A stretch of 64,000 nucleotides of DNA from Craterostigma plantagineum (Eukaryota > Streptophyta > Magnoliopsida > Lamiales > Linderniaceae): contig JAPQWV010000001.1 of assembly GCA_027422505.1 (NCBI GenBank), forward strand, positions 1,736,001-1,800,000. Reading direction: 5' to 3'. Made by a program: the position numbers and the translations under genes. Position 1 is the stretch's first letter; the number at the start of each line of letters is the position of its first letter. Below the pieces are notes generated by a model, which saw nothing but the letters and a program-made list of their open reading frames with translations, was not told the DNA's origin and made no database searches. Positions 1 through 21,044 of this stretch are shown piece by piece.

Positions 1-323
1 CATTATAGTCGTGTACATGTTTCTCAGTAATTCACAAATGCTTATTTTATACGTTAAAAATAATCTGAGCGAGGAAACATGTTTTGCAGGTACACGACCG
101 AGTAAGATTTCTCAATAAAGGTAGTTACTGACTACCGTTAGAACCGGCTCGTAATGCACGACGGTCTCATTTTAACAATGCGTAAGACTGCTCGTGTAAT
201 CCAGAATCGTAAGACCGCATAAAGAAGCCATAATGGAATTATAAATATAAGCAGGCAAATCATAAGGACATAAGGTTGCAAGACAGTAAGACCGAAGGCG
301 CCACACTGATGGCCATTTATTCG
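1..323. other. Non-coding left edge
   Basis: I see no gene. The stretch has short interspersed motifs such as GTCGTGTACATG near 9 and GTACACGAC near 91. It probably lies inside the large Helitron-like block, because no element terminus is visible. Confidence 0.4.
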
Positions 324-908
324 CTATTTTCTGAGAAGGTGATACCCCACTTCGTAAGAAACAAATGCATCGATGCAGGCATACTCGATTTGAGCGAAGT
401 TAAGATATCTGTTCTCCCAATTGCTCATAGTCACGTGCTTGGGTTTCCTCATCACCATGCCACAAAGTACCTGGGCCAGTTCTTTTAATCCTGGCCCACG
501 GAAATGTCCGGCCGGCAACAGTGCTTTTGCGACAGCCGCCACGTCGACGAAATTCCCACAATTAAGTAATCCGTTGTCGCGGATGAGCTTCGCCATGTCT
601 TCCCCGACTGCAACGCCGACGAATGTGTTGTTTGGGTTCAACATGAAATCCCTGAGCGCTTGACTGATTTTGTCGAGGTAAGCGAGCTGTATAATGATAC
701 ATCTACAGCCGATGCACAACTGTAGAGTGGCTGCTTTGTTAACGACTCCGCGAGTCCAAACCGGTCTGCACTCGACGTCGAGTCCAACCAGCGTCGGGAC
801 AGAGCCGTCAACTTCCCGTAGCCATTCCGTTACAACGGCCGACTCGTTGGTGACGGTTGTTACAATGATCTTGTCACTGAAATGCACATTAACTATACTC
901 GTACTCAT
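324..908 (-). CDS. WRN-like DEDDy 3'-5' exonuclease
   Basis: This is an intact single-exon ORF of 194 codons. It resembles the small plant family of Werner-syndrome-like 3'-5' exonucleases, which remove nucleotides from DNA or RNA 3' ends with two metal ions. The DEDDy residues are all visible: Asp44 and Glu46 in LDVEC (ExoI), Asp104 in GVAVGEDMAKL (ExoII), and Tyr176 with Asp180 in YACIDAF (ExoIII). The family-like phrase KPKHVTMSNW is near residue 157. There is no helicase domain, signal peptide or membrane segment. The start is the first Met ahead of the conserved block. It lies 1.4 kb beyond the second ULP1 gene, on the same strand as RepHel. It may be a gene captured by the Helitron or simply a neighbouring host gene, since the element border is not in the window. 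Confidence 0.82.
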   Translation of the reverse strand: MSTSIVNVHFSDKIIVTTVTNESAVVTEWLREVDGSVPTLVGLDVECRPVWTRGVVNKAATLQLCIGCRCIIIQLAYLDKISQALRDFMLNPNNTFVGVAVGEDMAKLIRDNGLLNCGNFVDVAAVAKALLPAGHFRGPGLKELAQVLCGMVMRKPKHVTMSNWENRYLNFAQIEYACIDAFVSYEVGYHLLRK

Positions 909-2276
909 TGTTTATATCTGATAATACCGATTCCCCACGTAGCTCCTTTTTTTATATTCGGCACTTTTGTTTGCCTTGCTTGTAAAGTTGACATATTTAT
1001 AGGCAAAATCGAGGGAAACGAAGAGATATCATTTGTAGGTGACCCTTGTTGTCCATCTATTAATGAGATATGGAGGCGCACATTTTGGTCGCGACTTTTC
1101 AGATGCAGTCGTTGGTCGATATGAGTACATGTACACCTATGTTATGGGTTGGATGAGTAAGAATTGACACAGCCGTATCGTTTAATGCTACATAAATGTC
1201 CATCAACAATTAATTTTTTTACGCAAATTAAACCGCAATATGTTAATATGACTTTCAATCCATCTACAATGTTAGTCAGCAAATTATGCGTACTGTTCTC
1301 AAAGGAGTACGAAGAGTCACAACCGACTTTTGCTATGCATTGATTAATATGTCGTGGACACATGAACCTTGGATGCGACCATCCGAATTCAGCTTTCAGT
1401 GGGTACCGTTACATGCATACTCATAGCTACGTAAACAGCTTACATCTTCATAGCTTAAATTAAAATATGCAATCAATGTTATTCAGTGTATTTTATACTC
1501 ATTGCGCCACTCAGTTCCGCGATTTTGACGGGCATAATGATAAACGGTGCTGCATACATACCCCTAGGCAAACATATGAAACGCGGAGCGTGTATAATAA
1601 TAACATCTTCTATTATAATGAAAACAAACAATTAATAGGGATAATGGTAATATGGGAGGCGCACGTAGCAGAGCACTACACATATCACTCCGGACACAAA
1701 GGGCCGTTGTCGACTAAATATAGTCACAAAATTATTTAACAAAAAATCAAAGCATTAATCATCAGAAAATAGTTGTATCTCAAAAACCTTACATGGAAGG
1801 AGAGACTGCGCGAGGATTTTGGAAACGACCGCGGAATTATCAAAATATTACTAATTACGTGGGAATTATGAACTCCGCAAATGGAGCGGGGACACTGCAC
1901 ATGGACGGAATAAGACTGCGGAAGACTGCACATAATAGTTTCATTAAAATTGAATTATATTCCCAAGATTTATTCATAATCAGATCGCGGGCAACCATAG
2001 TGTTAATTTTACGGTACTTGTGCTCATTTTTATTCCGGTTACACAACCTAATGCAAATAAGCACATATGTAAATTGTTTATACAGGTGGAAAGTGCATGT
2101 ATGAATATTTTTTTTGGAGCCTGCTAAAGCGTTCGGGTTCGAAGGAAGACTACGCCATACGTTTAGATAGCACTTGTAACGAACTGGTTTGTTAGCCTCT
2201 GGACGGCTGCACTGTTGCACGCGTAATATTTGGTACTATGCAAAAACATTTGTTAAACGGATCAACTTACTAAAAA
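909..2276. other. Intergenic, no supported gene
   Basis: Several short ORFs occur on both strands, but none shows a recognisable domain, a splice pattern or sustained coding bias. The stretch is AT-rich and separates the exonuclease from the end of the first ULP1 gene. Confidence 0.5.
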
Positions 2277-3713
2277 TTACCATTTGTTCAACAGAACAGA
2301 AACAGTGAGATAACGTCTATATTGTTCTATGTCTTCTGCAGTAATTTGCCTTATGTCATCCCCTGGAAACATCAGTGACATGGCCGATCTGAGCATGTAC
2401 ACCCCACACTCACCACCACTGTTAAATGCACAACGTCATATTGTGAGAACCTACGACACAATGTCCAACAAAACCAATATCCAAGTAATCGCAATACCTT
2501 TTCGGCTGTATGGGGAATTCAACATCTCTCAAGATTGTAAGCTCGAACATTGAGTCTGCCATGCCCAGATCCATAAGTATGTATGGAATTGTAAGCTGTG
2601 TGTTCCTAAAGGACCGGGCGAAGAATCGCATGTCCCTGTCCACAGAAGGGTCAGAGTCATGGATGATTAGAGAACGCCTCTTCAAATCAACGATACACAT
2701 AACCCAATGACATTTGTTGACATTTACTGGGACAACGATAAGGTCCGCCTGTTTCCACGGGAGAGATGGCCAGTTCTCTACCATACCCAGCGCATAAGGT
2801 CTAAGATGCGTCAAGTCTATTTGTCCATCAGCTCGATATTCCGTGGAGGCGATTTGATTAAACGTTGTGCTCATGAATGCGACACGGGAGGATGACAGTC
2901 GTCGCCCCTGTTTCTCGATAAATCCTCGGAGACACTCGTCAATGTGCTGCCACAAACAATCATATTAATCATCCGTCAACATGCAGGTCTGACCGATATA
3001 GACATATTTAGTTACCGAATCGCGAAGCCACGTGCCCTTTGTCAGTAGTTCCTCGAAGAATTTTCTATTTCTTTGTTCATCCAAGATGGTTCTGATACAG
3101 TCATTCTCTCCCATTTGCACAATAATTCTCGATACACGCGGTAGCATTTTCAAAGTATTCTTCAACTCGCAGTCCAGGACTCCGTCGGAAGATTGTAGTT
3201 TTTCGGGTACATCAGTCGCCTTAGGAGCACTCTTGTTTGGACCTGTACGTCGTTTCTGCGATTCAACACCCGAGGGGTCTACTGAAACAGAGGGCTGTTT
3301 GCGTTTTGAGACATGCCCGGTTCCAATATTGGTGTCGAACGCAGCACGACCGACATCTGGTCGGACATATGGATTCGAAACAACATATTGCACGATCGTA
3401 ATACCCCACAACGCTAAAAAAGAAAAGGCTGGACTGAGGAAATTTGAAAGACAGGAAAATTATTCTCACCGAGTTTCTTCTCAATTACAGACAGTCGTTC
3501 ATTTATTTGAATATAATGTCCGCTGATACTATTTGTTAAGGCGTTCAGTACATCCATCTGCACATTAAAACGCGTATGCAGTTCGTTGATTCGCTGAATG
3601 GAGCGTTCCGCGCACCCATCGATCCGGACTTCTATTTGTTCTACTAAATGTTCGACTGAAGCCCGGACCTCAGCTACGGCATCGTTCAAACAACTTTGCA
3701 CTTCACCCAACAT
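2277..3713 (-). CDS. ULP1-like C48 cysteine protease, copy 1
   Basis: This is a multi-exon gene for a SUMO-protease-like (C48/ULP1) protein. In order it encodes a coiled-coil segment (3713 to about 3470), a charged linker (3411-2965) ending in FFEELLTKGTWLRD, a catalytic exon (2946-2498) and a final exon (2418-2277). The catalytic His is in NKCHWVMC and the Asp in LIIHDSDP. The Cys is in SGGECGVYML, reached only after splicing a 79-nt intron (2497-2419, GTATTG...TTAACAG). Read through, that intron stops the frame. The same intron position and size occur in the copy at 13 kb. I found no DUF1985 domain upstream, so the N-terminal part may be lost or lie in exons I cannot recognise. Proteases of this kind are common in plant MULEs and also occur near Helitrons. 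The triad looks functional. Confidence 0.75.
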
Positions 3714-4979
3714 TTGTTGTCCTGCAAAATATACGCACGACTGGAAACGTTTCGATGTAAAAATAAAACTTGCGGTAAACTAACGCGGGAAGTTCCTATA
3801 AATAGCAAGATATAGCTAACAAATGTCGAGATACGTACCGTTTGGCATTCCGCGATTGATGTATGGTTTTATGCACGTAATGTCAATTTGTTTAAGAAGT
3901 AAACAACCAAACGTTTCGGCTGGATAGCGGCACGCCTATTGAGGAGTACTGAGACCAATTCCGATAAGGTGCGGAAAAACAAACTTAATGGAGCGACCAT
4001 TAATGGATTCGCGTTAATGATTCCAGCCGTCAGTTAATGCAAACCCATGCGCATTAGGAGATACAATGCACAATAATTCGTTAAAGGCCAATACATCCAA
4101 CTCATACGGAATGTGAAATTAGTCATACATGTATTCACTACAATAACTTAATTAGATTTAATATTGTGGACACCATTAAATTGCATATTATAGGCGCCGT
4201 AATACAGCTTGCATATTTTCATTGTAAAATGAGACGGTAATTTATGAATTTTCTTTTATTAGATTTGAATAATCTTGTCATCACGGGTCGTTTCTAGAAA
4301 ATGTGGCACGATTTAGTTAGATGTATTATTATATGGAGCAACACGTATTTTCCGCGTACAATTGTCAACGTTTCTATTTCTTACAATGTGGAACAAATTG
4401 ATTATTAAATATGGCGGAGACCATTGTTGACTGGCTACTGTACCCTTATTAGAAAAGTAAAATAAATGGATGCTATTTTAATTTCTCCACCCACCCATCC
4501 ACTCTCTATGCTTCAATTAAGTTATTCCTGAATTGAATCATATAGTTTTTTTTTCTTAGATAACCTTAGTGGCAATCGAGCTAATCCTCGTAATCCATGC
4601 AACCTGTGATTGAATTCACATAAATATCAATCGTCTATTTAATGAGTCAAACATCATTCCTACATACAAATAGTTGCATCGCATGGCAAGGCAGATCCAC
4701 GGTATCACGATAACATAAAAACTCACATGATTATTATTTCGGTATGAGAATCTGTTTACACGATGGATTTTAATGGTAATCGACCAATCAGATGCACGAC
4801 TGACTGGGCAGGATCCAATCTTCCAATAACGTTTGCTGCTGTATTACAGTTTCGTTAAAATTCAACGGTATAACAATTTTCGTGGTAAATTCTATGCAAA
4901 CGCTGCTCTCTTAGATTATCCCAGAGGCTAATTCACAAGTTTGTAAAACGGATTTCACATGACAATAAACTTCAATATT
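3714..4979. other. Intergenic between ULP1 copy 1 and RepHel
   Basis: The stretch is AT-rich with no ORF of note. A DUF1985-like domain, expected upstream of a full ULP1-family transposon gene, was not found. No Helitron terminus was recognised. Confidence 0.5.
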
Positions 4980-7900
4980 CTAAATATTGTTGAATACTTC
5001 ATGGAAAACTACATTTACAGTTTCATCATCGGACGAACCATCTTCTTTGACACTAATTATCTTGATTCCAGTCGATGATGTTACCCTAGACAATGCAACG
5101 TATAACTGACCATGCGTGAAAACCGGCTTTGGGAGATAAACACCAACCCTTTTAAGACTTTGACCTTGGCTCTTATTGATAGTCATTGCATAGCAAACCT
5201 TCACGGGGAACTGTCGTCGACGCAGCTTGAATGGCCACGTTGTGTCCGATGGGGAAAGAATTATCCTTGGTATGAGGACCTTTGCGCCAACATGCGTGCC
5301 CGTCAGAACTTCTGCTTCTACGACGTTCTTCCCAAGTCGTGATACAATGAGCCTTGTTCCATTGCATAAACCTTCTTTCTGATTTATATTACGCAACAAC
5401 ATTATGGGTATGTCCGTTTTCAGTCGTAGACTGTGGTTTGGAATACCAGGAAATTCAAGCATGTTCAGGAACTCCACTGGATATAATGTACTTGAGTTCA
5501 TTTCCAATTCTGATTCCAACTGCACACTGTCTGAACTTAGGTATTCAGTTTCATGTCCTGGCACTACCGTCAACATAAAGTCATTTATCTCGTCAACTGT
5601 CTGATTTCGAGGAGTGAGTATTGCCCTTTCTCTGATATACTCATGTCCTGACATGCATTCTTCAAAGTCAGAATATACATAGTTTGATATATCGCGCACA
5701 TTATCTCCCTGAGAACTGATGTACATATCCTTTGGTATCTTTACTGTTTCCATGGCAGACTCATGAGGATTTCCATCTCCAACTCGCAAAATCCAGTTTG
5801 AAAACTCGATTTCGGAGGCATGAAGCCTCATATTCTGCGTCAGGCTGTAGACTCGACAGTCATCCCACAAGTATGAACGGTTGATTGCCGACTCAACAGT
5901 ATCTTGTCTGCTGCCCTTTGGTATTACGGGGAGAATCTGTCTGAAATCTCCGCCCAATAAGACCGTCTTTCCTCCAAAGGGCTTGTTATCCGCCATCGCA
6001 TCCGACTTAGACAATAAATCTCTCATTGTTCTGTCCAAAGCTTCAAAGGCAAATCGGTTAGTCATAGGAGCCTCATCCCATATTATCAAACTCGTTTGCA
6101 TAATTAGCTCGGCTAGCATCGTTCCATGCTTTATATCACACATAGAATTTTCCTGAATATTTATAGGAATTTTAAACCTCGAATGAGCCGTTCTGCCACC
6201 AGGCAGTAGCAGCGCCGCTATACCAGAGGATGCCACGGGTAGGACTATGAGAGATTCGGATCGCAATTTTGAGATTATAGTTCTGTATACGTGAGTTTTG
6301 CCGGTGCCTCCAGGACCGTAGAGAAAGAACATATGACCTAAGTTGTTGTGGACTGATGCAATAACATCGTCAAACACTTGTCGCTGATTCTGATTCAACG
6401 TCTCAATCAGACGTTGAGATTCAACTTCACTCTCCTCGACACTGTAGCATCTTTCTTCCATCAACATTCTATTATTAAGTTCTTTCAGCATGTTTTTAGG
6501 CGGCAACGGCATCGGTGGGAAATCTGACAGGGTCTTCGAGCTCTGCATCAAAAGCTTTTCGATTTCTGCAAGCGTGTAATTCTTTATCTGTTCGTCGTTG
6601 AGATGTAAATCCGGGAACCCAAACAGTCTCTTCTGCCTCAGAACTATATCTTCAGAGAGGAATTTCCAGAAACTGTTCCACAAGTTCAATGGATTGCTGA
6701 CCTCACAAAAAATCAAAAGCGTCACAAAGAGTTGACGAAGCTGTTTGGGAGACGCCCAATGAGTTGATTCGTTAATAGCTTCATACCACTCGGAGTCTCC
6801 ATCCAATAATCCCATTCGATTGCAAGCTTCTTTGAACGTTGGGCATATTTCTCCGCCAACCGTCCGTATGTCTTCGTAAGACGTAGGGCCCTTAACGATC
6901 GTCAGCAACATTCTCATATAATATAAATCACCTGCTGTTGGATGTATATTCACTATCCTACCAATAACAAACCCCCTCTTACGCGGAGTCCAGGCCTTTC
7001 TAGAAGAATCCCAGACAAATTTTGAAGGAAACTGAATGTAAGTCAACTGCCTTGCCTCTTCGCTACACTTGTTAGACTCCATCCATTCAGTGAACATAGA
7101 CTTCCGTAAACCCTCCCTCGACATTATATTTCTGAGGTCAACAGTATCGTCGTACACCAGACTTTGCTGCCCTTCTAAGTGCAGTGGTAATCGTTGCACG
7201 GCTGGTTTTCTGTAGTGGACGTCGAATGAAAAAATCCTCCACATTGCCTCACAAGCAGATAAATATCTGCAGTCTAGATACCTTCTTATTTCGTCGTCGT
7301 TCGTTGCAGCCATCCCACCAGAACGTGGGGTCGAAGATACTTTATCTTCGATTATCATCGTTGCCTTGTCGACACCCTTCGTGATATATTTAAATAGGTA
7401 TTTTATTGCCCTTGTCGTGTTGCACCACTCCACATTTATATGCGCCTGATATTTCTTCAGCATCTGTAAATTATGAGGGACTACAAATCTGTTATCCATC
7501 ACGATATTTTTTTTGATAATGTATCTTTCATCTTTTCGTCTGCGGTAACGAACGTGGCCGGATTCGTCCACAGTAGTGATCTCGTTGAACTGCCTTGGAA
7601 ATTTCTTCACACACCTGTTATTTTCCATGCACGGCGAACTCGATCCATCAAACCCACAAGGTCCATGCATCATAAACTGCTCGACCAATTTATACCCTTC
7701 TTCGTCACGTTCTCTGTCAGGAATTTCCGCACAAATAACTTCATCAACCTGGCCTGGCGTCGGCTCAGCAGAACTTCCACTTAGCCATACCAAGATGTGT
7801 GCATGTGGCAAACCACGCTTCTGAAACTCGATTGTATATAAGACTGCAAGAGAAACAAAAACATGAGCTCGAGGATATGGAAACACATCACAAATAAATT

Positions 7901-9464
7901 CCACAAACATACCTGCTCTACAACTGTCAAAGAAAATACCACGTCGAAGGTCTGCTATGAGCTGTTCTAATTTCACCTTGAACAATCTGCACTGCAGGTC
8001 TGGCCTGTCATTTGAAATGTCGTTTCCATACATTCTAAGGTGGCCACCAATTTCTTCCCAGTTCGGATTCGCTGTAATGGTTATGAATAGTTGTGGGTTG
8101 CCATACCACCTACAAACTGCAAGTGCATCGTGATAATTTTCAACCATATACCTCGGAGATCCCGTAAATGATGACGGGAGTACAATTTTTTTGCCAAGAG
8201 ACTTGGCATTTGTCTCTCCCCTAGATACTGCATCGCAAATGTTATTATAAATATCTGCTCTAAGCGTTTTCTGGTTGCTTCTAATCCAACGCAACCGTTC
8301 TTGCTCTATGGCCGTATATGCGTCCACAACATACTGATGAAACAGTCTGCCGCCTCTTATGATACCTTTTCCTTCAGACAACCTCGTCTGTAACTGATAT
8401 GCGTAAAATTCTCGCATCGTTATGAATTTCCTCTTCAACTTACAATTTTCCGTGTCATTGTAAGGTATCTGGTCGTGGAAACCAGACTCTCCGAATGGAA
8501 ATAAGATTGGATATTGCATGGACATGAAAGACGGATGCAACTCACTTATTCTCTGGAGTTGACCTGTTTTCATCTGGACAATTATATCCCTCTGGCCATC
8601 CGTCATGGAAAAGTCACCAACTATCAGCCCGGCAATTTCGTTTGTGGCAGGTAAGTCATACTGTTTGTCACGACGGTTGCGACCCACCAACCTTATCGAA
8701 AATTCCTCTGTTAGGCCTGCTTCGTACCTGTCTCGAGCCATCCTAAAAACTTTCGCAAGTTCATTGTTTCTATCCATAATTTTTATGAGCTCTGCAACTA
8801 CGGATGCATCAAGACTTCCCGAACCATCCCTTGACATCGTACTAATTCTGTTACTAACTTCATTGGCAGTATCATAGATATACAGCTGAGCAAATTTGGG
8901 GCGATCGCCATCCGCCGGAAGCAGTGATCCAATATTATGGTAATTCTGACCGTGAATTCTGTAAACATAAGCACCCGTTCGCTGCTTCACCGAGGTGTCA
9001 ACTTTTGCACCCATCGACGTAAAGGCAAGTATAGAGTTGTAAATTCTGATATTTTGTCGGAAAGACTGCTCGGAAAACATATTCAATAGATACTGCGGCG
9101 CATGCCTCAAGGGTGGCAATTTAATCCTGCCCTGACCGCAGCAGATAGAAAAGCCACAATTCCCAGTCCGTACTTTGGTATTGGTTGATTCTGCCTTCCA
9201 TACTATTGCGTCGCAGAAACAACAGTGAACCGATTCTTCTTTATGATACTCTTGTGGAACAAACGATGTTACACATTTCTTATTGATGCGCCCTGTAACG
9301 GACGACAGCATAGGAAACCTCAGTTCGGGGAATAAAACATGGGATATACTAATATAGATAAGTCCGCAATGAACAGAGACCATACCCCGTGGGCTGGAAA
9401 CTTGGTTGCTATACACTGATGCGCCGTTGTTTCCGAGTCTGGTGCAGCCTATTTGTAACAACAT
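4980..9464 (-). CDS. Helitron RepHel transposase (Rep/PIF1-like helicase)
   Basis: This intact 1494-codon ORF encodes the replication-initiator/helicase that moves Helitrons by a rolling-circle mechanism in the nucleus. A Cys-rich N-terminal segment (HCCFC near residue 80) precedes the Helitron-like N domain. The HUH nuclease motif is in RGLPHAHILVWL near residue 551, and the tyrosine motif YLFKYITKG is near 690. The SF1B/PIF1 helicase follows: Walker A GPGGTGKT near 1050, IIWDEAPM near 1128, GGDFRQILPVI, and TINKSQGQS near 1428. A 69-nt stretch (7912-7844) just before the HUH motif has GT-AG borders and breaks the conserved block, so it is probably an in-frame intron; the spliced protein would be 1471 aa. 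There are no stops or frameshifts, so the copy is young or still selected. The start Met fits the usual N-terminal layout but could lie further upstream. Confidence 0.95.
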   Translation of the reverse strand: MLLQIGCTRLGNNGASVYSNQVSSPRGMVSVHCGLIYISISHVLFPELRFPMLSSVTGRINKKCVTSFVPQEYHKEESVHCCFCDAIVWKAESTNTKVRTGNCGFSICCGQGRIKLPPLRHAPQYLLNMFSEQSFRQNIRIYNSILAFTSMGAKVDTSVKQRTGAYVYRIHGQNYHNIGSLLPADGDRPKFAQLYIYDTANEVSNRISTMSRDGSGSLDASVVAELIKIMDRNNELAKVFRMARDRYEAGLTEEFSIRLVGRNRRDKQYDLPATNEIAGLIVGDFSMTDGQRDIIVQMKTGQLQRISELHPSFMSMQYPILFPFGESGFHDQIPYNDTENCKLKRKFITMREFYAYQLQTRLSEGKGIIRGGRLFHQYVVDAYTAIEQERLRWIRSNQKTLRADIYNNICDAVSRGETNAKSLGKKIVLPSSFTGSPRYMVENYHDALAVCRWYGNPQLFITITANPNWEEIGGHLRMYGNDISNDRPDLQCRLFKVKLEQLIADLRRGIFFDSCRAGMFVEFICDVFPYPRAHVFVSLAVLYTIEFQKRGLPHAHILVWLSGSSAEPTPGQVDEVICAEIPDRERDEEGYKLVEQFMMHGPCGFDGSSSPCMENNRCVKKFPRQFNEITTVDESGHVRYRRRKDERYIIKKNIVMDNRFVVPHNLQMLKKYQAHINVEWCNTTRAIKYLFKYITKGVDKATMIIEDKVSSTPRSGGMAATNDDEIRRYLDCRYLSACEAMWRIFSFDVHYRKPAVQRLPLHLEGQQSLVYDDTVDLRNIMSREGLRKSMFTEWMESNKCSEEARQLTYIQFPSKFVWDSSRKAWTPRKRGFVIGRIVNIHPTAGDLYYMRMLLTIVKGPTSYEDIRTVGGEICPTFKEACNRMGLLDGDSEWYEAINESTHWASPKQLRQLFVTLLIFCEVSNPLNLWNSFWKFLSEDIVLRQKRLFGFPDLHLNDEQIKNYTLAEIEKLLMQSSKTLSDFPPMPLPPKNMLKELNNRMLMEERCYSVEESEVESQRLIETLNQNQRQVFDDVIASVHNNLGHMFFLYGPGGTGKTHVYRTIISKLRSESLIVLPVASSGIAALLLPGGRTAHSRFKIPINIQENSMCDIKHGTMLAELIMQTSLIIWDEAPMTNRFAFEALDRTMRDLLSKSDAMADNKPFGGKTVLLGGDFRQILPVIPKGSRQDTVESAINRSYLWDDCRVYSLTQNMRLHASEIEFSNWILRVGDGNPHESAMETVKIPKDMYISSQGDNVRDISNYVYSDFEECMSGHEYIRERAILTPRNQTVDEINDFMLTVVPGHETEYLSSDSVQLESELEMNSSTLYPVEFLNMLEFPGIPNHSLRLKTDIPIMLLRNINQKEGLCNGTRLIVSRLGKNVVEAEVLTGTHVGAKVLIPRIILSPSDTTWPFKLRRRQFPVKVCYAMTINKSQGQSLKRVGVYLPKPVFTHGQLYVALSRVTSSTGIKIISVKEDGSSDDETVNVVFHEVFNNI
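7844..7912 (-). other. Predicted 69-nt in-frame intron in RepHel
   Basis: The donor reads AGCAG|GTATGT and the acceptor TTTCTCTTGCAG|TC on the minus strand. The length is a multiple of three and contains no stop, so the ORF reads through. The encoded 23 residues are hydrophobic and interrupt a well-conserved Rep segment directly ahead of YTIEFQKRGLPHAH. Splicing restores the family spacing. Confidence 0.7.
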
Positions 9465-9669
9465 TACATTATCGGCATCACACGATAAAAAACATTAAGG
9501 TTAAATGGCAGTGCAACTACCCATAATCAACAGTACGAACCTCCATCACCCAAATTAAAAGCACTCTGCTGCACGCGCAAACGACGCTTATTCCTTAGTA
9601 CTTCAATTCGATGTTTTCTTGCATACTTGCCCCTGGAGACGTTTTGTTGCATACCTGCCCCATGGTCTG

Positions 9670-10029
9670 TTAATGAAATGAACACTGACTACATCGTAAA
9701 AAGAGGCACGAAATGATACTATTTGATACACACGAATATTTTTCTATATTCGTTCGTGATGGGTGAATTAAGAAAAGAAATTTACCAATCGTATCATTCA
9801 CGTTTGATAACTTTGCGTCGATTGAAGCAAATCGACGTGTCAAAACAGACATTGTCTGTGCCAGATGACCAGTAAGAGCAATGTAACTCTCCTGCGACGT
9901 TTTGAATACCATTTCTTCACATCTTGTGCAGGAATTAATCTTATCATCCATACTCTCCACGATGTGATCAAACGTAATACTCAGACCGTCGAGGTGCTCT
10001 TGCAAGACTGGTCGGAGAAATTGTGCCAT
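9670..10029 (-). pseudogene. Coiled-coil exon relic of a ULP1-family gene
   Basis: The ORF encodes a heptad-rich segment whose end (IDAKLSNVNDTIG) resembles the ends of the coiled-coil exons in the two ULP1 genes (INERLSVIEKKLGE at 3.5 kb and LGIMNETIKKFG at 14.3 kb). All three run into a plausible splice donor. No protease exon follows on this strand, because RepHel begins 200 bp further on. It looks like a leftover of a third copy. It could also be an unrelated small gene. Confidence 0.4.
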
Positions 10030-10084
10030 AGCAACAATTTGTTACAGCACACAATATCACAAGTCCCGTGGAACTAACACTATA

Positions 10085-10180
10085 GTCTGGGCATGGCAGA
10101 CTCAATGTTCGAGCTTACAATCTTGAGGGATGGTGAATTCCCCATACAGCCAAAGAGGTATTGCGATTAGTTGGATGTGG
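10085..10180 (+). pseudogene. Inverted ULP1 catalytic-exon fragment
   Basis: About 95 bp on the plus strand match the minus strand of 2478-2572 (part of ULP1 copy 1, including its splice donor) with about six differences. The match ends abruptly near 10180. The fragment lies in the opposite orientation to all nearby ULP1-type exons. One substitution turns the Tyr codon after TATTGCGAT into TAG. Confidence 0.8.
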
Positions 10181-10907
10181 GTTATTTTCGTCACTGTTGA
10201 GGGTTAATTTAGTTAACATACTTAATCGCGACCGGAACCTAGGTAGAAATACAGCGAATAGTCTGTTTACATTACCGAAATAAATATTTAAGCGCAATAC
10301 AATCATTCAGTGCCGCCATTAATTTCCTTCAATGCATAAACAATTCATGCGGTCTTACATATATAGTGTTGACTAATTTTTTAGCGTGCACGACTCCTTA
10401 GTACCTCACGTAACTATTCCGCAATCGTACAGTAAATGCACCTCATATAAAATAAAAGCCAATTTATTTTTCTAACTCGTACATTTACAGAAGTGTTTTA
10501 ACTGTGTTTCTAAGTATGCGGAACTGACTTACTCCATCACGAATTTTAGTAACTCAGCCAGATTGCATCCGCTTAACTAACCGCGAATATAGCATGTACC
10601 GCAACAGTCTTCTCATGTTATATAATGCATCGCGCATGACCGGTCAATATTGTCATTTGTAATGAGAATATCTCAGATTTCTGCTTTACCCTACGCCAAT
10701 AATCCGTCTAAATGAACTGTATACTTAGTTATTTTCGATGTGTTTCTAAGTTCTCACCGACAATTAAATAACAGATTTAGACATACGACATGCCAAACAA
10801 ACAGAACACATAATATAACAAAATGCTGTCCAAACACCTAAATAGACAGAGAGGAGACTAACTACAGGCAAAAAACATAATTCAAGATCAATTTTCCTAA
10901 AGGCACA
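10181..10907. other. Intergenic, no supported gene
   Basis: Only short ORFs are present. The motif GTGCACGACT near 10386 recurs at about 17466, and a related GATGCACGACT lies near 4791. These are the only repeated features I noticed. Confidence 0.4.
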
Positions 10908-11547
10908 TCAATTAACAGTCCGCTTTCCTTTGTACGTCCCTTTCACACTGGGAGGAGCACTGTTATCATTCTCATCATCCTGGGCGGGTTGGGGAGCGAT
11001 GACAAATTGCTCTTTTCCGCCTGCTAGCGGGCCACCCACTATCACCCGCCGGGAACTAAGAAACATCTCCCTCATGTTTTCACACTGCGCGGCAAACATT
11101 ATTAGATACAGAAGAATAAAAATAGTTCTTGTAGTCATTTAAGAGGACTGGAAAACTCGGATAGAGATTACCACAGCGATCTGTCCTCTCAAGAACTGCA
11201 GTTTCTGGAGCAACTCAAACTTCTCTTCCATTAAGCTATCTATCTGCCAGAATTCAATGTTCTATGAAATTAGATTCTAAATTCATAAATAGTCGCAACA
11301 AACAACGTACCTTCTTCTGCGATTCGATGTACATCTTTTTGTAGCTTACGCCTCCACCACTTCCACCCAAGCCAACGGCCTCATCGGCCTTTGCCTTTCC
11401 TTCAGGGGGTGTACATTGAAGTCCGTCCTTTTCTTCGATGCCTTCATCACAGTTGTAATAAACATCCTTTTCTCTACGACCATCGCCCTTGCTGCTTTCC
11501 AAGGGGTCAGCAACGAACCCCTTCTCCTGCTTGGAATTTGGCACCAT
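10908..11547 (-). CDS. Hypothetical Helitron-block gene
   Basis: I do not recognise this gene. A first exon (11547 to about 11311) encodes a hydrophilic, Gly/Glu/Lys-rich segment ending in SYKKMYIESQKK, followed by a GTACGT donor. A middle exon near 11236-11180 (IDSLMEEKFELLQKLQ) is predicted after the acceptor TTCTGGCAG. The last open segment (11138-10908) encodes a short hydrophobic stretch followed by GGPLAGGKEQFVIAPQP and a basic C-terminus. The exon joins after the middle exon are uncertain. It shares strand and spacing with the flanking Helitron genes. Confidence 0.35.
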
Positions 11548-12412
11548 ACTCGGGGAATTTAGACGACTTGATCTTCGAAAATTTGGGTTTGAGCTTGTCC
11601 CGCCGCGATTCGAGGCTGAACGCTAACGTTGCGAATACAATTAGTCAGGCAGTTCGCATTTAAAGATGTTGAAATTTAGCAGACCTAATCGTGCCAGTTA
11701 CATAAGGAACCAATTATACAAAACCTAGAACAACACTAAACCCTTTCTGCACAAAATCAACTGAAATTCATCCTACTGAAGCTGGGTTTCCACTAATTCC
11801 TCTTAACGAACATGCATACATCTTGATGTTACTCATAATTGCACACACTCGTGCGCGATTAAGGACGACGAAGTTGCAATTACAAATCATTAAACAACCA
11901 CCATATACTTGCGCATCTAGGAGCCCAGTAAAACAGAGTAGATTACACAACCAAACAAACGTAACTGCTTACATCTATGCCAGAGGCGACATTTCGCTTG
12001 ATCTTCCTGACCATTTCGTGCTACTTCGTTCCCAAAATATGCAGCACTCCTCAGGCAACTAAATGTTGGAAGCCAACACGTTTTTACTTGAGCGGGTTGC
12101 GCGTTTTGGTCACCGAACGTTTTTAATGATTCTATTGTCATTATTATGAGTTTATGACTTAATTAGTTTAATTCCATTTGTTCCTGGCCACCAAGAGCAA
12201 TCAATTTATTATACCGAGATCGCACATAGGGATTAGTATAAACAAAACAAAAGAACACCAAGAGTCAACAATGCTCGGTTTGAGAGAACATTATTTGTAA
12301 TCAATTGCGATCTATGCAAACAGAGCTATATATACGGTGCATTCAGTCGTATATCAATAGACACCACACGAAATCGTGCTTCCCATACCCGTTCAGAACC
12401 ACTAACCATAAA
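11548..12412. other. Intergenic, no supported gene
   Basis: No conserved coding segment was seen. The right part probably holds the promoter of the plus-strand GRF gene. Confidence 0.4.
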
Positions 12413-12799
12413 ATGAGTTCTTCACCAATAAACATCGGAAGAGGCGACTTAAGATACAAAGAGCACAAGTGCAAATGTGGAATGGAATCCGATATCAAGA
12501 TCGTGGGACCGACGAACACAAGAGAAGGTAAATTATTCTGTATTTGCAAGAGTGGATACTGCGATTTCTTCATGTGGTTTAATCCAGTAGACATCAATCT
12601 TAACGACGACGGAGAAATGCCAGACGCGGAGGTGTTCATTCCGAAAAGATGTAATATCGACGCCGAACATATGGGAGACCTGTTTTCGACGTGCGATCAG
12701 TTCGAAAAGAGAATAGCGTCGCTTGAGAAGACGGTGAAAATGATGAAAATTAGCCTGACAGGTGCTCTGATTGTTATATGTACAATCCTATGCAGGTAG
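12413..12799 (+). CDS. GRF-type zinc finger, tail-anchored membrane protein
   Basis: The ORF encodes 128 aa from the Met at 12413; an in-frame upstream Met at 12305 precedes a non-conserved leader. A GRF-type zinc finger is visible: CKCG at residues 20-23, then TREGKLFCIC and GYCDFFMWF near 36-55, giving the Cys ligands and aromatic residues of that family. GRF fingers bind single-stranded nucleic acid in APE2, TOP3A and related proteins. A short coiled coil (about 92-108) is followed by a C-terminal hydrophobic segment (ISLTGALIVICTIL), as in many small plant GRF proteins. It is the only clear plus-strand gene in the Helitron block. Whether it serves the element or was captured is unknown. 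Confidence 0.75.
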   Translation: MSSSPINIGRGDLRYKEHKCKCGMESDIKIVGPTNTREGKLFCICKSGYCDFFMWFNPVDINLNDDGEMPDAEVFIPKRCNIDAEHMGDLFSTCDQFEKRIASLEKTVKMMKISLTGALIVICTILCR

Positions 12800-13057
12800 C
12801 CATTCATTTACAGCTACTTCTAACGTACTATTGTCAAAGGAGTCGATCATTTTGTACAACAGCTTTTACCTTCTAACTGTCTACGTTATACAACTCGTAC
12901 CCGGGGTAAATTCACATAGAATACAAACCCAGAAACACAGCAGGTAAACCTCAGGCACATGTGTAATTCAGCAAAAGACTCCCATGAAAACAGTCTTCCA
13001 AACAACGACCCCACCATTTCACGACACAACACCAAAAAAAAAACCCCACCAACAGAA

Positions 13058-16000
13058 TCAAACGACGACGGACGGTCTTTCATTCCAAGGAGGCCAATGC
13101 CAGTATCTGTAGAAAACAGACGCAGCAAGATACCAGCGGAACTCCGTCATCTGAGAGGGAAGGAAATCATGAAGTTTGTCATTGCGAAACATTGTGGAAA
13201 ATGCATTCCGGAGCACATGAATACCGCATTCGTCCCTGCATAAAGCAAACAGAGACACGTTCAGTCACATCACAATGAGAAGGTCTGTCAATAGATGAAT
13301 CAACCAGACATTACCCAATTCCCTGTTGAGGAGTTCTACCGTCCCTTCCAACTTTAAAACTGAACTCAGAATTTACTACCCCGATGACCTTCAACGCTAG
13401 CGTGATAACATCAACAGCACTTCCCAGCGAGGTACGTATGAGCCGCATATCAGGGTCATACTGCACGTTCGAATCAACAACAGCAAATGTCCTTCGCTCA
13501 GGCACGGCAGCACACAGGACCCAGTGCTCGTCATTCACATTCAGCGGGAAAACTATAATCCTGGCGTTCTTCCAGTTACATGACGGCCAAGCAGCAAACT
13601 GCCCCATAATGAACGGCATAACATCACTCAAATCAGCCACCCCGTCTCTCACAGGTATTTTCGTCACAAACTGACTGAACGCCGTATTCATAAATGCAGT
13701 TCCCCTCATTGGATGGATACACAGACTTTGCATCTCTATGAAACCACGCAGACACTCATCAATATGCTGCAATATTTATTTAAGAAAACCCTCACGATGC
13801 TTTCAACAACCAACGACAAACTTACATTGAAATTAGATTTATTATAAACATCTATGGAAAACTCACAATATCACGCAGCCGCGTCCCCGGTTTAATGAGT
13901 TCATTGAAAAAATCGGATTTAAGGCTCTCACCCAACAGACCCCTTTTAAAATACTCTGGCCTCATCCCTCTTATGCACCTCTCTGCATCAGGCCACATCC
14001 GCAGCTTGTACAAAACATGCTCGTCGATTGCATGGTTCTTGTACGGCACCCTCCGACTATTTGGAACCACAGACAAACTTACTTCATCCAACCTGCGCCT
14101 CTTTGCAGACTGGATCCCTTCAATCGACTCCTCCTCTGCATCCATTACAATTAATAACGTATAGGAGAGAACAAAAAACAAATCAAAATAAACACAGAAC
14201 TAATGTATTGGGAAAAAAAACACCGAATCTCGGAGGGCTTCAGCAGAAGGTAGCCTACATACCAGTTTGAGATTGGCCGAACTTCTTTATTGTTTCATTC
14301 ATAATACCGAGCTGACTTCCAACCCACCCCAGTAGGTTCTCAACAGGTTTAATTTTCCGATCAAACCACTCCTCTTGAACATGAATACTGTCAACCGCTT
14401 CTATGTTCGACAACCTCTCATTAACTTCAATGAACGATGTTTCCATCAGTTTTTTCATACACAAAACCTGTTCAGCATGGTAATCAACCATACTCCCCAC
14501 ACCAGCAACTTCGTTTAAGATGTCAAGACCTCGTGGACCGATTTCGTCGCAAACATGATCTTGGCCAGCTTCAACTCCAACTCTCGCTTTATTCAAATTC
14601 TCTGCTCCTTCAGCAAAACCAGTGAGAACATTTGGTATGATCGCTTCTTCAACAGCCACATGCGGATGACTTGTTATCACATGTTCATTATCTTCATCAG
14701 AGACGTCAGAAGAGACCTCAATAGTATGAGTTACGGGGGACAATCTGGACCGACTATCGCCACTCAACCGCCCATCAGAAACATGATGCTCACTCATCAT
14801 CTGATCTGCAGATCGGAAATCACCAATAAAGCACGCCTCCTGATGAGGGCATCGGCCATCTGGCCCTCCAACATCCAACACATTTTCCTCCATTCGACCC
14901 ATCGGCAAAACAGACTCCTTCTCCCTAACGTCTAATGGATCCATGACTGTATCGATAGCAAGCTGCGCACCGATGCCACTGACTATTACACCCGCACCGA
15001 AACATTGATCACCATTTTGAGCGGTTCTGGACACGTCTTCTTCAGGATGCAGGCCGCTCACACCAGCATGTGCATAGTTAGGACGCTGCTCCTCACTTCG
15101 AACGATCGGATCCTCCCGCACAAAGCCAGCATAAGATGACGTGTTACCAGACTCGGGTACCCCACCAACCCCCCCCATTTCCAACTGCAAAACAACATCC
15201 GGAGATGCCACCCGACGGTCAACAGAAGCTTCCTTGCCATAAGCCCTTTTTTCCTTCAACCGGGCCGGCCGCAGCTCATTCAACAGTTCATACAGAGTTT
15301 TTGATTGCCAACCGGCGTCACCAGATCCAGCCATCGAATCACAAGAAATTACAGCATCCGATTGGAAGCAACGATCACTCCCATAGTCACGCTGCTGTTC
15401 TTGAGGACGCCCAATTTCGCCGTCGAAAGCAGACTCAGAGGCTGATTCATTTTCGCTCGATGACGACAGAGTAACGCGCACGGGAGGTGTGTTCTGAGTC
15501 TTTTTTTGGATACGATGAACCTCTTTCCCCTCAGTCGTTTTCTCACTATTTTTCTGGCCGTGATGCGAGGCCCTCCTGCGCGAACGTCCGCCAGCCAGAC
15601 ACTGAGAGACACTCGGTGGATCCGTTTCAGTCACCACCGGCCGCTCATCACAGCCATCGAAATTAGACTGAACATGAGGCATGCAGACAAACTTGACACC
15701 GTTCAATAAATATTCCGTTATCCTCTGGATAACTTCAGAAGTGCGAGTCTGTTCAAAGATACTTCCTTCAAAGAACTCTGACTTACGCTCAGATGCTGTA
15801 GGCTGCAAAAGCCCTTTCTCGACACCAAATTTTGAAACTGCCTCAATTACTTGGTCCATCCTCGGAGACGCCTTACAGCTCCACTGTTTTGTCTTCCACA
15901 AACACATGCGAGGAACCACCCGTTCTGGCCTATTCACGGCAACAGCAAAGCTCTGTGCAATACCAGGAATGCATTCATAAGCAAGAACCTGCGCAACAAA

Positions 16001-16961
16001 GGATCAAAGACGCACCGTCAATTCGCCTCAGTCTTGCAAAAAAACACTCTACGAAGAAATACTGATCTCACGTACAATATAACAGCTAATTATACCTGCA
16101 AGGGATGGACGAATCCACCGAGAGTCAGTCCCTTATATTTCTTATTCGCACCTGACCTATTGACAACCGTACGCCGAGAAACGTCTTTTCTCAACGACTT
16201 GAGAGCGTCCCTATACGCAATGGTTCCCCATGGATAATCATTGAATCTGGCAAAGTCATCCACTAAAGAGAAAATTTCTGGCCTGACTATGACATTTTTC
16301 CGAGAGCTTCGCTGTTCTAGTACCGCAACAACGAATATTACGCAGGCTAATTTCAACTTCTCCACATCAATCCTGTCCGATGGACTTCGCCTGCATCGTG
16401 AGAACCGTTCACGAACGTCATCCAGGTGTATGGTACTCTTCCCAGGAAAGTGCCTTGAAACAAACCCACTGTCATCGGCAATATCCGGAAGAGGACCAAA
16501 CTTCATACCCGTTAATAAGCAGTACTCCAAACACGAAAATCGAATGGGCGATTTATCGACAACCATCCACAGCTCGTTCGATTCGCTCACTGCAACCTGC
16601 GACTTCATCAAATACCACAAAATCTGCCCCGATACGCAGAATTGATCGGCACACTTAATGAGGTTTCCAAATTGAGTTCGAGAAACAAGCTCTTCAAGCT
16701 CAATATTGTTCAATTTACTGACGATGACCTGGCTAATCGTCTGATAATCAGCACACAACGTCAGCTTACAGGGCACAAACACGTCTGGAGGAACTTGAGT
16801 TTCAAGAACTTCCTGAAAAGAACAAAGCAACCCTCGAACATAAGCAGCCCGCACCCATGCACACACGCAGCACTCGAACATAAATACAACAAAACAAAGG
16901 GCACGAAGAGGAAGCTAACCCTGATAACTATGGCATTAATATCAGCTTCGGTGGACGCCAT
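13058..16961 (-). CDS. DUF1985-ULP1 cysteine protease gene, copy 2
   Basis: This is a multi-exon gene of the plant DUF1985/ULP1 type. Exon 1 starts at the Met at 16961 (MASTEADINAIVIR). Exon 2 (about 16816-16090) is the DUF1985 domain, with LVSRTQFGNLIKCADQ, FSCLEYCLLTGMKFGPLP and YPWGTIAYRDALKSL. Exon 3 (about 15986-14255) begins VLAYECIPGI and continues as a long, probably disordered acidic/Ser-rich linker with a C-terminal coiled coil. Exon 4 (to about 13858) has basic KRRR and ends FFNELIKPGTRLRD, matching copy 1. The protease exon (13766-13315) has His in NDEHWVLC and Asp in FAVVDSN. After a 79-nt intron (13314-13236), the last exon gives Cys in GDECGIHVLR. All three triad residues are present and no disabling mutation is obvious. 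The role is probably SUMO/ubiquitin-like deconjugation, inferred from the family. Confidence 0.75.
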
Positions 16962-17661
16962 TCTTGAGCTTTAGAATTGTAAAACGCGGTAATTTCTTGT
17001 TTTTTTCAGGGAAGAACCGTGAGTAGCAGTGAGCTATTCGAATTTATTAGTCAAGAAGCATGTAATAAAGAACCCAATTTATTTTCAATTTGGGTAAACT
17101 GAAATTCCCCTCAACAGTGAGGAAAATAACCCTTGTATAAGGGGTAAGTCCTAAAATAACACAATAATCGAAACGGGGACCGGGTTTAATTAATTGGTCA
17201 AACTACATGGTACACACACCAATAATCTTAATAGAAGCCTACTATTTAACTATACAAATATAACATATTTTCCCGATACCAGTAGTAAAATTTACATGAC
17301 ACAATCCCGAATTTCACAATAATTAGGGCCAGAATATAAGATGGCAACAGTAGTAAATCACGTTCAATAATCGATACGGGGGACACAAAAGGATAGCAGA
17401 TCATACCAGGTGAGCCTACATTCTACGCAATACTGACATAACAAAACAATACTAAACATTTAGCCGTGCACGACTGGGCAGTGACGCACCAACCAACCAA
17501 CTAATTAGACCACATTCGCATCAAATTTCAATAGATAGACGACAAAGACATGCAAAACATCGGGCCGTTAATAACCAGTAACCGGATGAGGCGAGCAGCA
17601 TTGAAAGAAACAACCAAAACATCCCGACAATCATAGGTTAAAGACACACACATCATCATAA
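16962..17661. other. Intergenic between ULP1 copy 2 and RPA
   Basis: AT-rich, no gene seen. It should contain the promoter of the ULP1 gene and the 3' end of the RPA gene. Confidence 0.4.
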
Positions 17662-19977
17662 TCACGTTTTACGCTTCTTGTAAACACGATCAAGATTCAC
17701 ATGCTCCTTATTCGGGCGGCCGCCGGTGCCCTTTGCAACATCGCCGGCCATGCCGTGCGCGACGACCACACGCGAATCGGGAGCGACTTCTCCCGCACGA
17801 ATAGTCTGGGTACCAACACAATCATTCTCACTTTTCACAGCCTTTTCATTGTACACAAGCCCACGGTTCACGGCAGCATTGGTCGGAACGACATCGAGAG
17901 ATCCGGAAGACAAACAACCCATCAAAAGACCGGAACCAGGTGAAACATTAGAAACCGAAGCATCAGTCTGCAAATCAACCTAATCAGATAAGGACGGAGG
18001 GGAATTATAAGTCAGTAAGTGAAAGATGAGGACACGATCGACGATTAGAATAAACATAATCCATACCAGGGACACCGCACAGTCGTGCGGGACACCTTCT
18101 TCAGTCATACGGTAAACGGTAAAACTTCGGTACATGCTTCGAAAGTCGAATGGTTTCACTTTCACATAGAACTTAAAGGTCCTGCCAACTAACCCCAATA
18201 TACAGTCCGGCACATTAGCCAGGCCCGACTCATCAACGGAACGCTTCTCAACCTGATCACAGTGCAAAACGGAGCGTGTGAAAGACGTGTAAAGAAACAT
18301 AAACAAACATAAGGGTACGATGAAGACCGTTGAAGTCACCAATTCCTCAGCGGTCGTGCATGTAATTTTTCGCCCAGGCCCATCAAAAATAACAAACGTT
18401 GCAGTGTCAGAACCATCTTCAACTACGACTTCTATGCGAAACCTGTCATCAGCAGTCGGAACGATATAAAGCGAATATGAAAACCGTCACATAAGGGACT
18501 AATGAATGGTAATACCGCAGGATGCCAACTGCATTGGCGTTGGAACACCTAGCGCAGTTCAGAGCAATCCCAGTTTTATCGAGCTTGCTCGAGCATCTAG
18601 AACACGATATATAGTACCAGCCATTCCGACCAAGAACCTCGTTTATGTTTGCAATGCATACGAAATCCTTCACCTACAGGAAAATTGTCGCCGTGAAGAG
18701 TGGACGACCACAATACAAATGCGTTACACACATATAAAATGCACCTGCTCAGTCTCGCTGTATAAAAAATTGTGAATCGCGGAGATAGGGGACACCGGGA
18801 TGTCAGACCGAACCATCGTCTGGAAAACCGTTTGCGGCAGTTCGGTAGCGACCAACCTGTCATTGTAATACGCGTAAGCTTATAAAAGCGGGTGATCGTA
18901 GCATAAAGTGTCATGACAACTACAACTAACCTCCTGCGAAGCACGTCGACGTCATCAACATCATAATCAAGGTACAACTTCGACGAAGTCGTTGTATTCA
19001 AATACAGGCTACCTGCGGGATGATATTCGGTGAGGGCAGACGCAATACAGACAAAACCGAGAAGTTCCATATACCTCCAAAATACTTTGGGTTGACAGAC
19101 GTTACGATGGCAACGACATTTTGGGTACCGGCAGAACGGATATCGCTGCAAAACTCCAGTGCCTTCTCAGCCCAAACTGTGACGAACGCATCTTTAAAAC
19201 TGCAAGGAAACCACCAATCGAAACATTACCTGTCGAGAACGAACAATGACCGATATAAGAAACCACAGTACGCATACCCCTCCATAATGAGTTTGAGAAC
19301 AGCTCTTCTTGCAACGCCCTTGTCGGCAGATTCTGGCTCAATTACTTGCGTAAGCAAGCCAATAACATCTGCGAACATACCAAGGGACCATTTAACATAA
19401 AAGGAGAGGGTATGACGGAAACATCAAAGCACGACTCAAGCATACCAGGTAACTCCTGATTACGACCGGCTAGGGTAATAAATGCATCGTAAGAACGAAA
19501 GCGAAACTTGTGGAGGCCTATAGAATTAGAATCTCCAGCGAGCGCACGAATAGTAGTATTCTCATTGAACCTCATCATGAAACGGTGATCAGTAATACGG
19601 TAGCTAGTAGGTGCGTTCACAACCTCAAAGTTTGTTATAGAAAATAAAAGACCATCCTTCAAAGAACCCTCGAACTTGTGGGCCATCTGGATTTGAATTG
19701 TAGCTTGCATCATCGTGTCCTGTCCCAAATCAGCGATAACTTCAGAATAGTCGACAACCACGACAAAATTAAGCGACAGTTAAAAAGCTTGACTAACAAA
19801 ACAAAAAATAAGCCAACTAACCATCTCATCCAATAGAATGAGATCAAGACTCATGGGCGAACCATTTCTTCGCAAGTTCCTCGACGTCCATGAACGGAGG
19901 AGTCGCACAACAACAGAGACTAAACCGGACTTAGGGGTCAGCTCACCAAGGGCGCACGACTTCACTACATCACCCAT
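17662..19977 (-). CDS. RPA70-like single-strand DNA-binding protein (Helitron-associated)
   Basis: This is a complete multi-exon gene for a replication protein A large-subunit-like protein, the usual companion of RepHel in plant Helitrons; it would coat single-stranded DNA during rolling-circle transposition. The first five exons fit precisely: 19977-19822, 19719-19446, 19368-19230, 19199-19075 and 19012-18931. Later exons follow down to a terminal exon near 17981-17662 ending in a basic KKRKT. OB-fold signatures appear in order: RSWTSRNLRRNGSPMSLDL; ITNFEVVNAPTSYRIT; then, after splicing, ELPDVIGLLTQV and NVVAIVTSVNPKYF; and the zinc-ribbon fold WYYISCSRCSSK with NCARC. FRIEVVVEDGSDTATFVIFD belongs to the DBD-C-like domain. 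What first looks like a frameshift near 19380 resolves as a GT-AG intron (19445-19369). No disabling change was found. Confidence 0.88.
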
Positions 19978-20708
19978 GTTGATGGAACAATTAGCAAATT
20001 TTCGGAAAGTCCCGACAAAATAATCAGCGAGAAGGCTGAATTTATAGTGCGCGAAGGACGAAACGTTCCATGTTTAGAGCACGACGTACGCGCACTACTG
20101 CCAAGAAAAGTATGCAGCAAACCGTACGACTGAAACGACCAGGTACAATGGACAGTAAATAATGAAGCGACCTTAGCTGACTAAGAATACGAAACGTTCA
20201 GGACGGCCGGCAATCGAGCAGATACGACGAAAGGTGCAATCGAACAGTCAATCTTAAATGCCAGAAAGGGCAAGGAAACGAAACGGGAGACCAATAGTGA
20301 CCCCTTTAAACGGGGTGCACTACCGCCAATGCAGATGAATAGACTCATTAAATAAATACGTCCCAAACACTAACCAGGTACACTGACGAATACGATGCTC
20401 GACGACCCTTGGTGGCACAATGAATAAAGAGCACGACCGTCACAAAATACACGACCATCATTAAAGAGTAATAAATACTGCCATTCCGCCAGGTACAATG
20501 AACGCATCTACTACAAAGACGATTGGATAGGACTAACAGATGTTGCGTCTGAAAACATAACACAAACCGCTTAAAATAAGCGTGGGGACGCCACGTAGGC
20601 TAAAATTGTGGTAGGTAAACGGTCGTGCACCGTATCCGGACAAAATACCATATTTATGACAACAATCGAGGGGGGGGATTAATTTGCCGACGTGTCAGCA
20701 CAGTAGAG
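19978..20708. other. Helitron 5' leader region
   Basis: The stretch between the RPA start and the putative terminus has no supported gene. Short ORFs near 20180-20560 show no domain. Confidence 0.4.
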
Positions 20709-20709
20709 A

Positions 20710-21033
20710 CCCTGATCAACTTTTATATATATGATTATAATATGCAATAATAACGATGAGATAGTATATGCAACAACTCTACTTGGGAGGAAATAATATT
20801 TCTATTTATTATGATTGCTCATCGTGGGGACGACTAAACAATTGAATTATTACGAAAATAACCTTGAGCGTCCATATCGGAGTCCACGTCAGAATTTCAC
20901 GACGCGTCAAGCGGTTCAAGAACAAATCAACGCCGAGGAGACATTAAGATTAGGGGCACAAGGGACATTTAAGCTAAAATGTTTCGAGAAGCATGGAAGA
21001 TTAACGATTAAATTTTGTCCCACGAAAATAGAT
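20710..21033. other. Upstream flank of ARF1
   Basis: Unique-looking AT-rich flank between the putative Helitron terminus and the ARF1 TATA box. No gene is seen. Confidence 0.4.
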
Positions 21034-21044
21034 TTATATATAAA
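21034..21044 (+). promoter_or_regulatory. TATA box of ARF1
   Basis: TTATATATAAA lies about 30 bp ahead of a CT-rich leader (TCTCTCGCGC). The leader then carries an intron (21152-21786) with GT-AG borders, ending 16 bp before the start codon. Confidence 0.55.

Follow-up and report, generated by a model that had tools for sequence, protein, structure and literature searches.

Among MULEs, ULP1 genes of the Kaonashi/KIU type were reportedly described by Hoen in 2006. In the parts of the published accounts drawn on here, DUF1985 is a domain of the VANC proteins of VANDAL MULEs (PMC5735166), KIU genes are VANC copies with Ulp1 (PMC13317346), and the non-coding parts of VANDAL21 contain a short motif that is bound by VANC21, which causes loss of DNA methylation (PMC5735166, PMC10398659); sequence-specific anti-silencing by transposon proteins is thereby already known from VANDAL MULEs (PMC5735166). 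The KIU copies of Arabidopsis transposons show low or undetectable expression, and the portion of the report used here holds an action on SUMO to be unlikely (PMC6117577). For Helitrons, the corresponding part of a study in rice describes nine sequences, 8.1-15.5 kb long, that have an RPA homologue with a gene next to it, a Mothra sister element in which RPA and RepHel are both present, and an RPA-only Helitron; Helitrons with RPA and RepHel are a known plant type (PMC4683698), in agreement with the statement of an earlier, sequence-only reading of this DNA that the two genes typify plant Helitrons. Many plant Helitrons, though not all, have both genes. The sequence-only reading had also remarked that DUF1985-ULP1 genes are better known from MULEs, which fits the occurrence of DUF1985 in VANC (PMC5735166).

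The locus described here lies in a 64-kb window (the whole stretch of DNA analysed, which is plant DNA), of which positions 1-20709 are referred to as the block. Like the Mothra sister Helitrons, the block holds RepHel together with a multi-exon RPA gene (10 exons are modelled, against 8 for RPA in the Mothra mother element), and its span up to the RepHel stop, 15.7 kb from position 20709, is similar in length to the rice family; unlike the rice elements, as covered by the excerpt, it has a DUF1985-ULP1 gene that separates RPA from RepHel, another ULP1 gene beyond, and no recognisable 3' end inside the 64-kb window (PMC4683698). With VANDAL MULEs it shares, as far as the excerpts go, a DUF1985 gene and, as a candidate, a short motif enriched in non-coding DNA (PMC5735166, PMC10398659), but it has RepHel, none of its 17 ORFs of at least 120 aa contains a MULE transposase domain (Pfam), and its motif is dispersed, without tandem arrays. 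With the Kaonashi/KIU genes of MULEs it has in common a VANC-type gene with a C48/ULP1 domain (KIU would carry DUF1985 by extension from VANC), whereas the carrier is Helitron-like and not a MULE (PMC13317346, PMC6117577). Fungal TET/JBP Helitrons offer a further likeness, a cargo gene thought, in the part of the paper considered, to aid escape from DNA methylation, with another enzyme family and in another kingdom (PMC12730594).

The best reading of the locus, to which we give a probability of about one half, is a Helitron with RPA and RepHel that has a DUF1985-ULP1 gene in its span; the co-orientation of RPA, the DUF1985-ULP1 gene and RepHel behind a candidate 5' end, together with a motif on both sides, makes such a ULP1-carrying Helitron plausible. 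The block would then comprise the 5' end and the middle of a large plant Helitron that reads leftwards, from an end near 20709 through RPA and the DUF1985-ULP1 gene to RepHel, its 3' end lying outside the window or being no longer recognisable as such. In such an element RepHel would nick and unwind, RPA would coat the single strand. The DUF1985-ULP1 protein, acting like VANC or KIU of MULEs, may bind a scattered short non-coding motif, for which GCACGAC is the candidate, and so counter the silencing of its own element.

Genes of the block

The features of the block, from its right border leftwards, are the following; the RPA, ULP1-2 and ULP1-1 models rest on manual splicing without transcripts.

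20060..20709, minus strand: candidate Helitron 5'-terminal non-coding region, with the candidate terminus TCTCTACTGTGCTGACACG at 20709 and an A/TC alternative at 20715
17662..19977, minus strand: RPA-like gene, 534 aa, 10 exons, hand-spliced GT-AG model
13058..16961, minus strand: ULP1-2 with DUF1985 and C48 (ULP1), 1127 aa, 6 exons, hand-spliced GT-AG model
12413..12796, plus strand: small ORF with a sub-threshold GRF zinc ribbon, from the Pfam score
10908..11547, minus strand: possible three-exon ORF of 161 aa (frame translation, exons joined by eye), for which Pfam gave no match
10086..10197, plus strand: inverted DNA copy, 112 nt, 89%, of part of ULP1-1
9784..10029, minus strand: open stretch of 82 aa upstream of RepHel (frame translation, tblastn), coiled-coil-like by eye, without a match above cut-off in the Pfam scan
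4980..9464, minus strand: RepHel, 1494 aa, intact by domains and catalytic motifs
2277..3848, minus strand: ULP1-1 with C48, 416 aa, 5 exons, hand-spliced GT-AG model
324..908, minus strand: WRN-like DEDDy 3'-5' exonuclease, single exon, 194 aa, PF01612
156..20628, either strand: dispersed motif GCACGAC, 13 copies, starting at 156, 3344, 3735, 4794, 10388, 17468, 18082, 18353, 19429, 19954, 20079, 20431 and 20622

All main genes share the minus strand, the exception being the small GRF ORF on the plus strand; the sequence-only reading had likewise placed the genes mostly on one strand. RepHel was rightly called intact there, since its ORF (4980-9464) runs through 1494 aa with the catalytic motifs kept: matches to PIF1 (E=4e-88) and Helitron_like_N (E=4e-48) are accompanied by one HxH (residue 554), Y-x3-Y-x2-K (689), GPGGTGKT (1050) and WDEAP (1129), giving the HUH, two tyrosines and PIF1-like helicase of a plant Helitron. 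Its closest relatives among the matches listed are from Brassicales (Tarenaya, 58%), and a search of IMG/VR yielded 13 pattern matches and no relatives. In the best 120 of 951 RepHel relatives, RPA domains occur in the same protein in eight (counted by eye), and C48, DUF1985 and PF01612 in none, in a comparison that makes fusions visible and neighbouring genes not. The RPA gene (19977-17662) is likewise intact, although as a 10-exon GT-AG model and not as a single long ORF, with DUF223 at 60.7 bits (cut-off 24.6) and Rep_fac-A_C at 30.0 bits (Pfam cut-off 28.5); it lies on the same strand as RepHel at a distance of about 8.2 kb, with ULP1-2 and a composition break in between.

Of the two ULP1 genes, ULP1-2 combines DUF1985 (E=8.5e-15, 55.4 bits, cut-off 35.1) with C48 (E=7e-11) and its catalytic residues, the features of a KIU/VANC-type gene; a search with its spliced protein scored 7991 candidates, of which none passed. 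ULP1-1 matches C48, shows no match to DUF1985 in the Pfam scan, and aligns with yeast Ulp1 (1euv, E=1e-4); it is a diverged second ULP1 gene, with 31% identity to ULP1-2 (133 of 427 aligned columns), and its N-terminus is uncertain because the modelled first exon has only 10 nt. Both proteins have the C48-site residues His, Asp, Gln and Cys, which bears out the intact triads claimed for them. In each gene the catalytic Cys is found in the last exon, downstream of a short intron, so that a single-ORF reading would overlook both cysteines. The copy at 10086-10197 corresponds, inverted and at 89% over 112 nt, to 2458-2569 in ULP1-1; as it includes the start of the last intron, the copying took place at the level of DNA and not of RNA, and DNA-level shuffling has thus occurred within the block.

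The GRF zinc finger of the sequence-only reading holds less well: the ORF is there (12413-12796), on the opposite strand to the main genes, and its score of 22.0 bits stays below the cut-off of 25.9.

Candidate ends and the break near 12.9 kb

The Helitron-like 5' terminus that had been placed at the right of the block is retained as a candidate at 20709, and the evidence for it is mixed. The word TCTCTACT, found there on the minus strand, is not rare (4 in the 64-kb window against 1.3 expected) and is preceded by G instead of A, an A/TC reading being available at 20715; as a Helitron 5' end it is weak. Indirectly, a border near 20709 is indicated by two further observations: the A+C strand excess of the block stops at a change point at 21112, about 400 bases outside 20709 (20716-21130 still has +0.08), and the last GCACGAC of the block, at 20622, lies inside the candidate border. 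For the opposite end, neither a strict scan for hairpin, CTRR and T nor a relaxed scan for hairpin and CTRR gave a convincing candidate on the minus strand left of 4980 in the window (nothing in the strict scan, none scoring at least 8 in the relaxed one, which covered 1325 CTRR on both strands, 121 of them with a stem of at least 5). The best minus-strand 3'-end candidate in the block, at 7318, falls within the RepHel ORF and the next, at 18066, within the RPA gene; both were set aside, and neither scan, run on both strands, yielded a usable 3' end. Within the window the block shows a single end, itself doubtful, and its left end may lie outside.

Segmentation by A+C places a change point at 12889, between ULP1-2 and RepHel, with a log-likelihood gain of 42; A+C amounts to 58.2% in 12890-21112 and 51.7% in 1-12889. 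At fourfold sites on the sense strand G+T makes up 343 of 505 positions in ULP1-2 and 317 of 597 in RepHel (P=6e-7), and the difference between G+T and A+C is 0.36 in ULP1-2, 0.27 in RPA, 0.06 in RepHel, 0.03 in ULP1-1 and -0.03 in the exonuclease. A gradient of strand bias along the rolling-circle strand was considered and dropped, as the thirds of RepHel are out of order (0.02, 0.25, -0.06).

A break of this kind fits two elements or two histories, or else one element that is unevenly transcribed. If two or more elements are present, side by side or nested, a unit of Helitron end, RPA and DUF1985-ULP1 (12.9-20.7 kb) would adjoin a separate RepHel-bearing element; such a unit would possibly be semi-autonomous, without RepHel, comparable to the Mothra mother element, and the RPA-only Helitron in the part of the rice study used provides a precedent (PMC4683698). 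The change point, the fourfold sites and this precedent speak for such an arrangement; against it, no convincing 3' terminus is seen near 12.9 kb (the nearest listed, 12750 and 12051, are weak), GCACGAC is enriched on either side of the break, and the skew could also stem from a bias linked to transcription. The two sides are further connected by an inverted repeat of 39 nt at 85% (10179-10217 and 17094-17132), which spans the break and whose 22-base core (10182 and 17108) was matched in 0 of 100 shuffles and occurs, allowing up to 3 mismatches, at two sites only in the 64-kb window. We consider two or more elements rather unlikely. The sequence-only reading's single 20-kb Helitron accordingly stands in part: RPA, ULP1-2 and RepHel are co-oriented, but the break at about 12.9 kb and the want of a convincing 3' end count against it.

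The motif GCACGAC

A VANC-like function of ULP1-2 predicts a motif. GCACGAC was spotted by eye and was then subjected to an unbiased ranking of k-mers, to shuffles and to controls with real DNA. Among the words of the non-coding DNA of the block, GCACGA ranks first at k=6, GCACGAC at k=7 and GTCGTGCA at k=8; GCACGAC is seen 8 times against 0.53 expected when the whole RPA gene is counted as coding. None of 300 dinucleotide shuffles contained any 7-mer as extreme, and at k=6 one did. The motif occurs 13 times in 1-20709, and two copies are present in the 42,870 bases of host DNA (Fisher P=2e-5). Within the block, with RPA introns counted as non-coding, 9 copies fall in 8029 non-coding bases and the remaining 4, which lie in exons, in the other 12,680 (P=0.04). 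Both sides of the break contribute, with 4 non-coding copies against 0.35 expected in 1-12889 and 5 against 0.26 in 12797-20709, so that the enrichment is suggestive of a link between the two halves of the block.

The controls narrow this result. In three of five host stretches there are 7-mers whose raw enrichment matches or exceeds that of GCACGAC, and which are clustered in the cases checked; GCACGAC is spread over 20.5 kb in 11 clusters, against 1 to 4 clusters for the nine host words examined. When each cluster in the whole block is counted once, with a spacing of 250 bases, GCACGAC retains a modest lead at k=7 (10.2 against 8.7 and 6.9), as does AGTCGTGC at k=8 (12.4 against 9.5 and 10.3). 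With a spacing of 500 bases GCACGAC scores 5.4, tied fourth in the block and under the best host words (8.4, 6.9), and AGTCGTGC remains first (12.4 against 8.3 and 10.3); at k=6, counted by clusters, both GCACGA and CACGAC are outside the top five. Tandem arrays, as found in VANDAL targets, were not detected by TRF left of 25.5 kb in the window. Given the modest margin over real DNA, the want of tandem arrays and the single locus, GCACGAC is a lead and not a result.

GCACGAC may also be read as a promoter element, a site for RepHel or RPA, or a chance word, with the ULP1 genes as inert captured cargo; we regard this as a serious possibility, falling somewhat short of even odds. It is compatible with the anatomy of the ULP1-carrying Helitron proposed above, so that the confidences given to the two need not sum to 1. 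The enriched words of host stretches and the lack of tandem arrays agree with it, as do the low expression and doubtful SUMO action of the Arabidopsis KIU copies, within the scope of the excerpt cited (PMC6117577); against it stand the intact catalytic residues and splice sites of the six-exon ULP1-2 and the dispersal of the word in 11 clusters, unlike the host words checked.

If the ULP1-carrying Helitron is nonetheless the correct reading, its VANC/KIU-type gene is possibly an anti-silencing module specific to its own element, and by analogy with VANC and KIU an anti-silencing role would be likelier for the ULP1 genes than a role in SUMO metabolism. A five-gene Helitron that controls SUMOylation and DNA-end processing, as had been put forward from the sequence alone, is improbable. 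The fuller proposal, that a plant Helitron acquired a VANC/KIU-type DUF1985-ULP1 gene and established GCACGAC throughout its non-coding DNA as a target code of its own, is speculative and in our estimate unlikely. Were it true, an anti-silencing system would have crossed from Mutator-like to rolling-circle transposons, and anti-silencing modules would move between unrelated transposon classes; GCACGAC would provide a concrete, testable motif for Helitron anti-silencing. No description of a DUF1985-ULP1 Helitron was found in open-licence papers, as judged from titles and the openings of abstracts. In Amaranthus palmeri a Ulp1 gene shares a 297-kb cassette with three predicted Helitrons, and in the part of that paper considered no placement of the Ulp1 gene inside a Helitron was found (PMC5240378).

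The exonuclease and the flanking DNA

The DEDDy exonuclease at 908-324 (minus strand) is, as had been proposed, a real and intact gene: PF01612 is matched with E=3e-16 and the DEDDy residues are present, D44, E46, D104, Y176 and D180 being conserved in 117, 115, 120, 119 and 120 of the best 120 relatives. WRN is its best solved relative. Its gene family is an ordinary one in plants; the best 120 of 236 relatives show PF01612 only, and the named ones among the matches listed are from plants of many orders, many of them called 'Werner syndrome-like exonuclease', some relatives being unnamed. No Brassicales appear among the named rows of these 120, whereas the best relatives of RepHel are Brassicales. 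Its codon usage leans weakly towards the host set: it scores +3.2 log units, while the other five block genes scored are all negative (RepHel, the ULP1 genes and RPA -13.8 to -98.2, GRF -3.2). The test is soft, as negative values were also obtained for 3 of 7 host genes. At fourfold sites it has C at 28 of 91 positions, against 285 of 1564 in four element genes (P=0.005). The exonuclease is thus probably a captured or neighbouring host gene, a passenger that is not needed for transposition.

These properties weigh against a single Helitron of exceptional gene content that carries both ULP1 genes and the exonuclease as functional cargo. We hold that reading to be distinctly improbable, even though every frame is intact and only the small GRF ORF departs from the common strand. 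The exonuclease may still lie inside the element, given that GCACGAC occurs beyond it at 156, with a near-match at 93; this is one copy in the 323 bases of 1-323 (P=0.03). The k-mers shared between this left edge and the right 5' region are not significant. Among 17 block segments compared in the same way, the highest value belongs to 4497-4820 (z 3.0 at k=8, reached in 4 of 300 shuffles), and the highest z among 61 host segments is 2.4.

Between 21 and 60 kb the window contains what we take, from translations read by eye, to be Arf-, galactinol synthase-, nucleoredoxin-, HAK transporter-, RING- and MYB-like frames. An element of LINE type, with endonuclease-like and reverse-transcriptase-like frames (again from a translation read by eye), occupies 38392-42164, and tandem repeats of 219-221 bp, with copies in both orientations, extend over 46980-48531.
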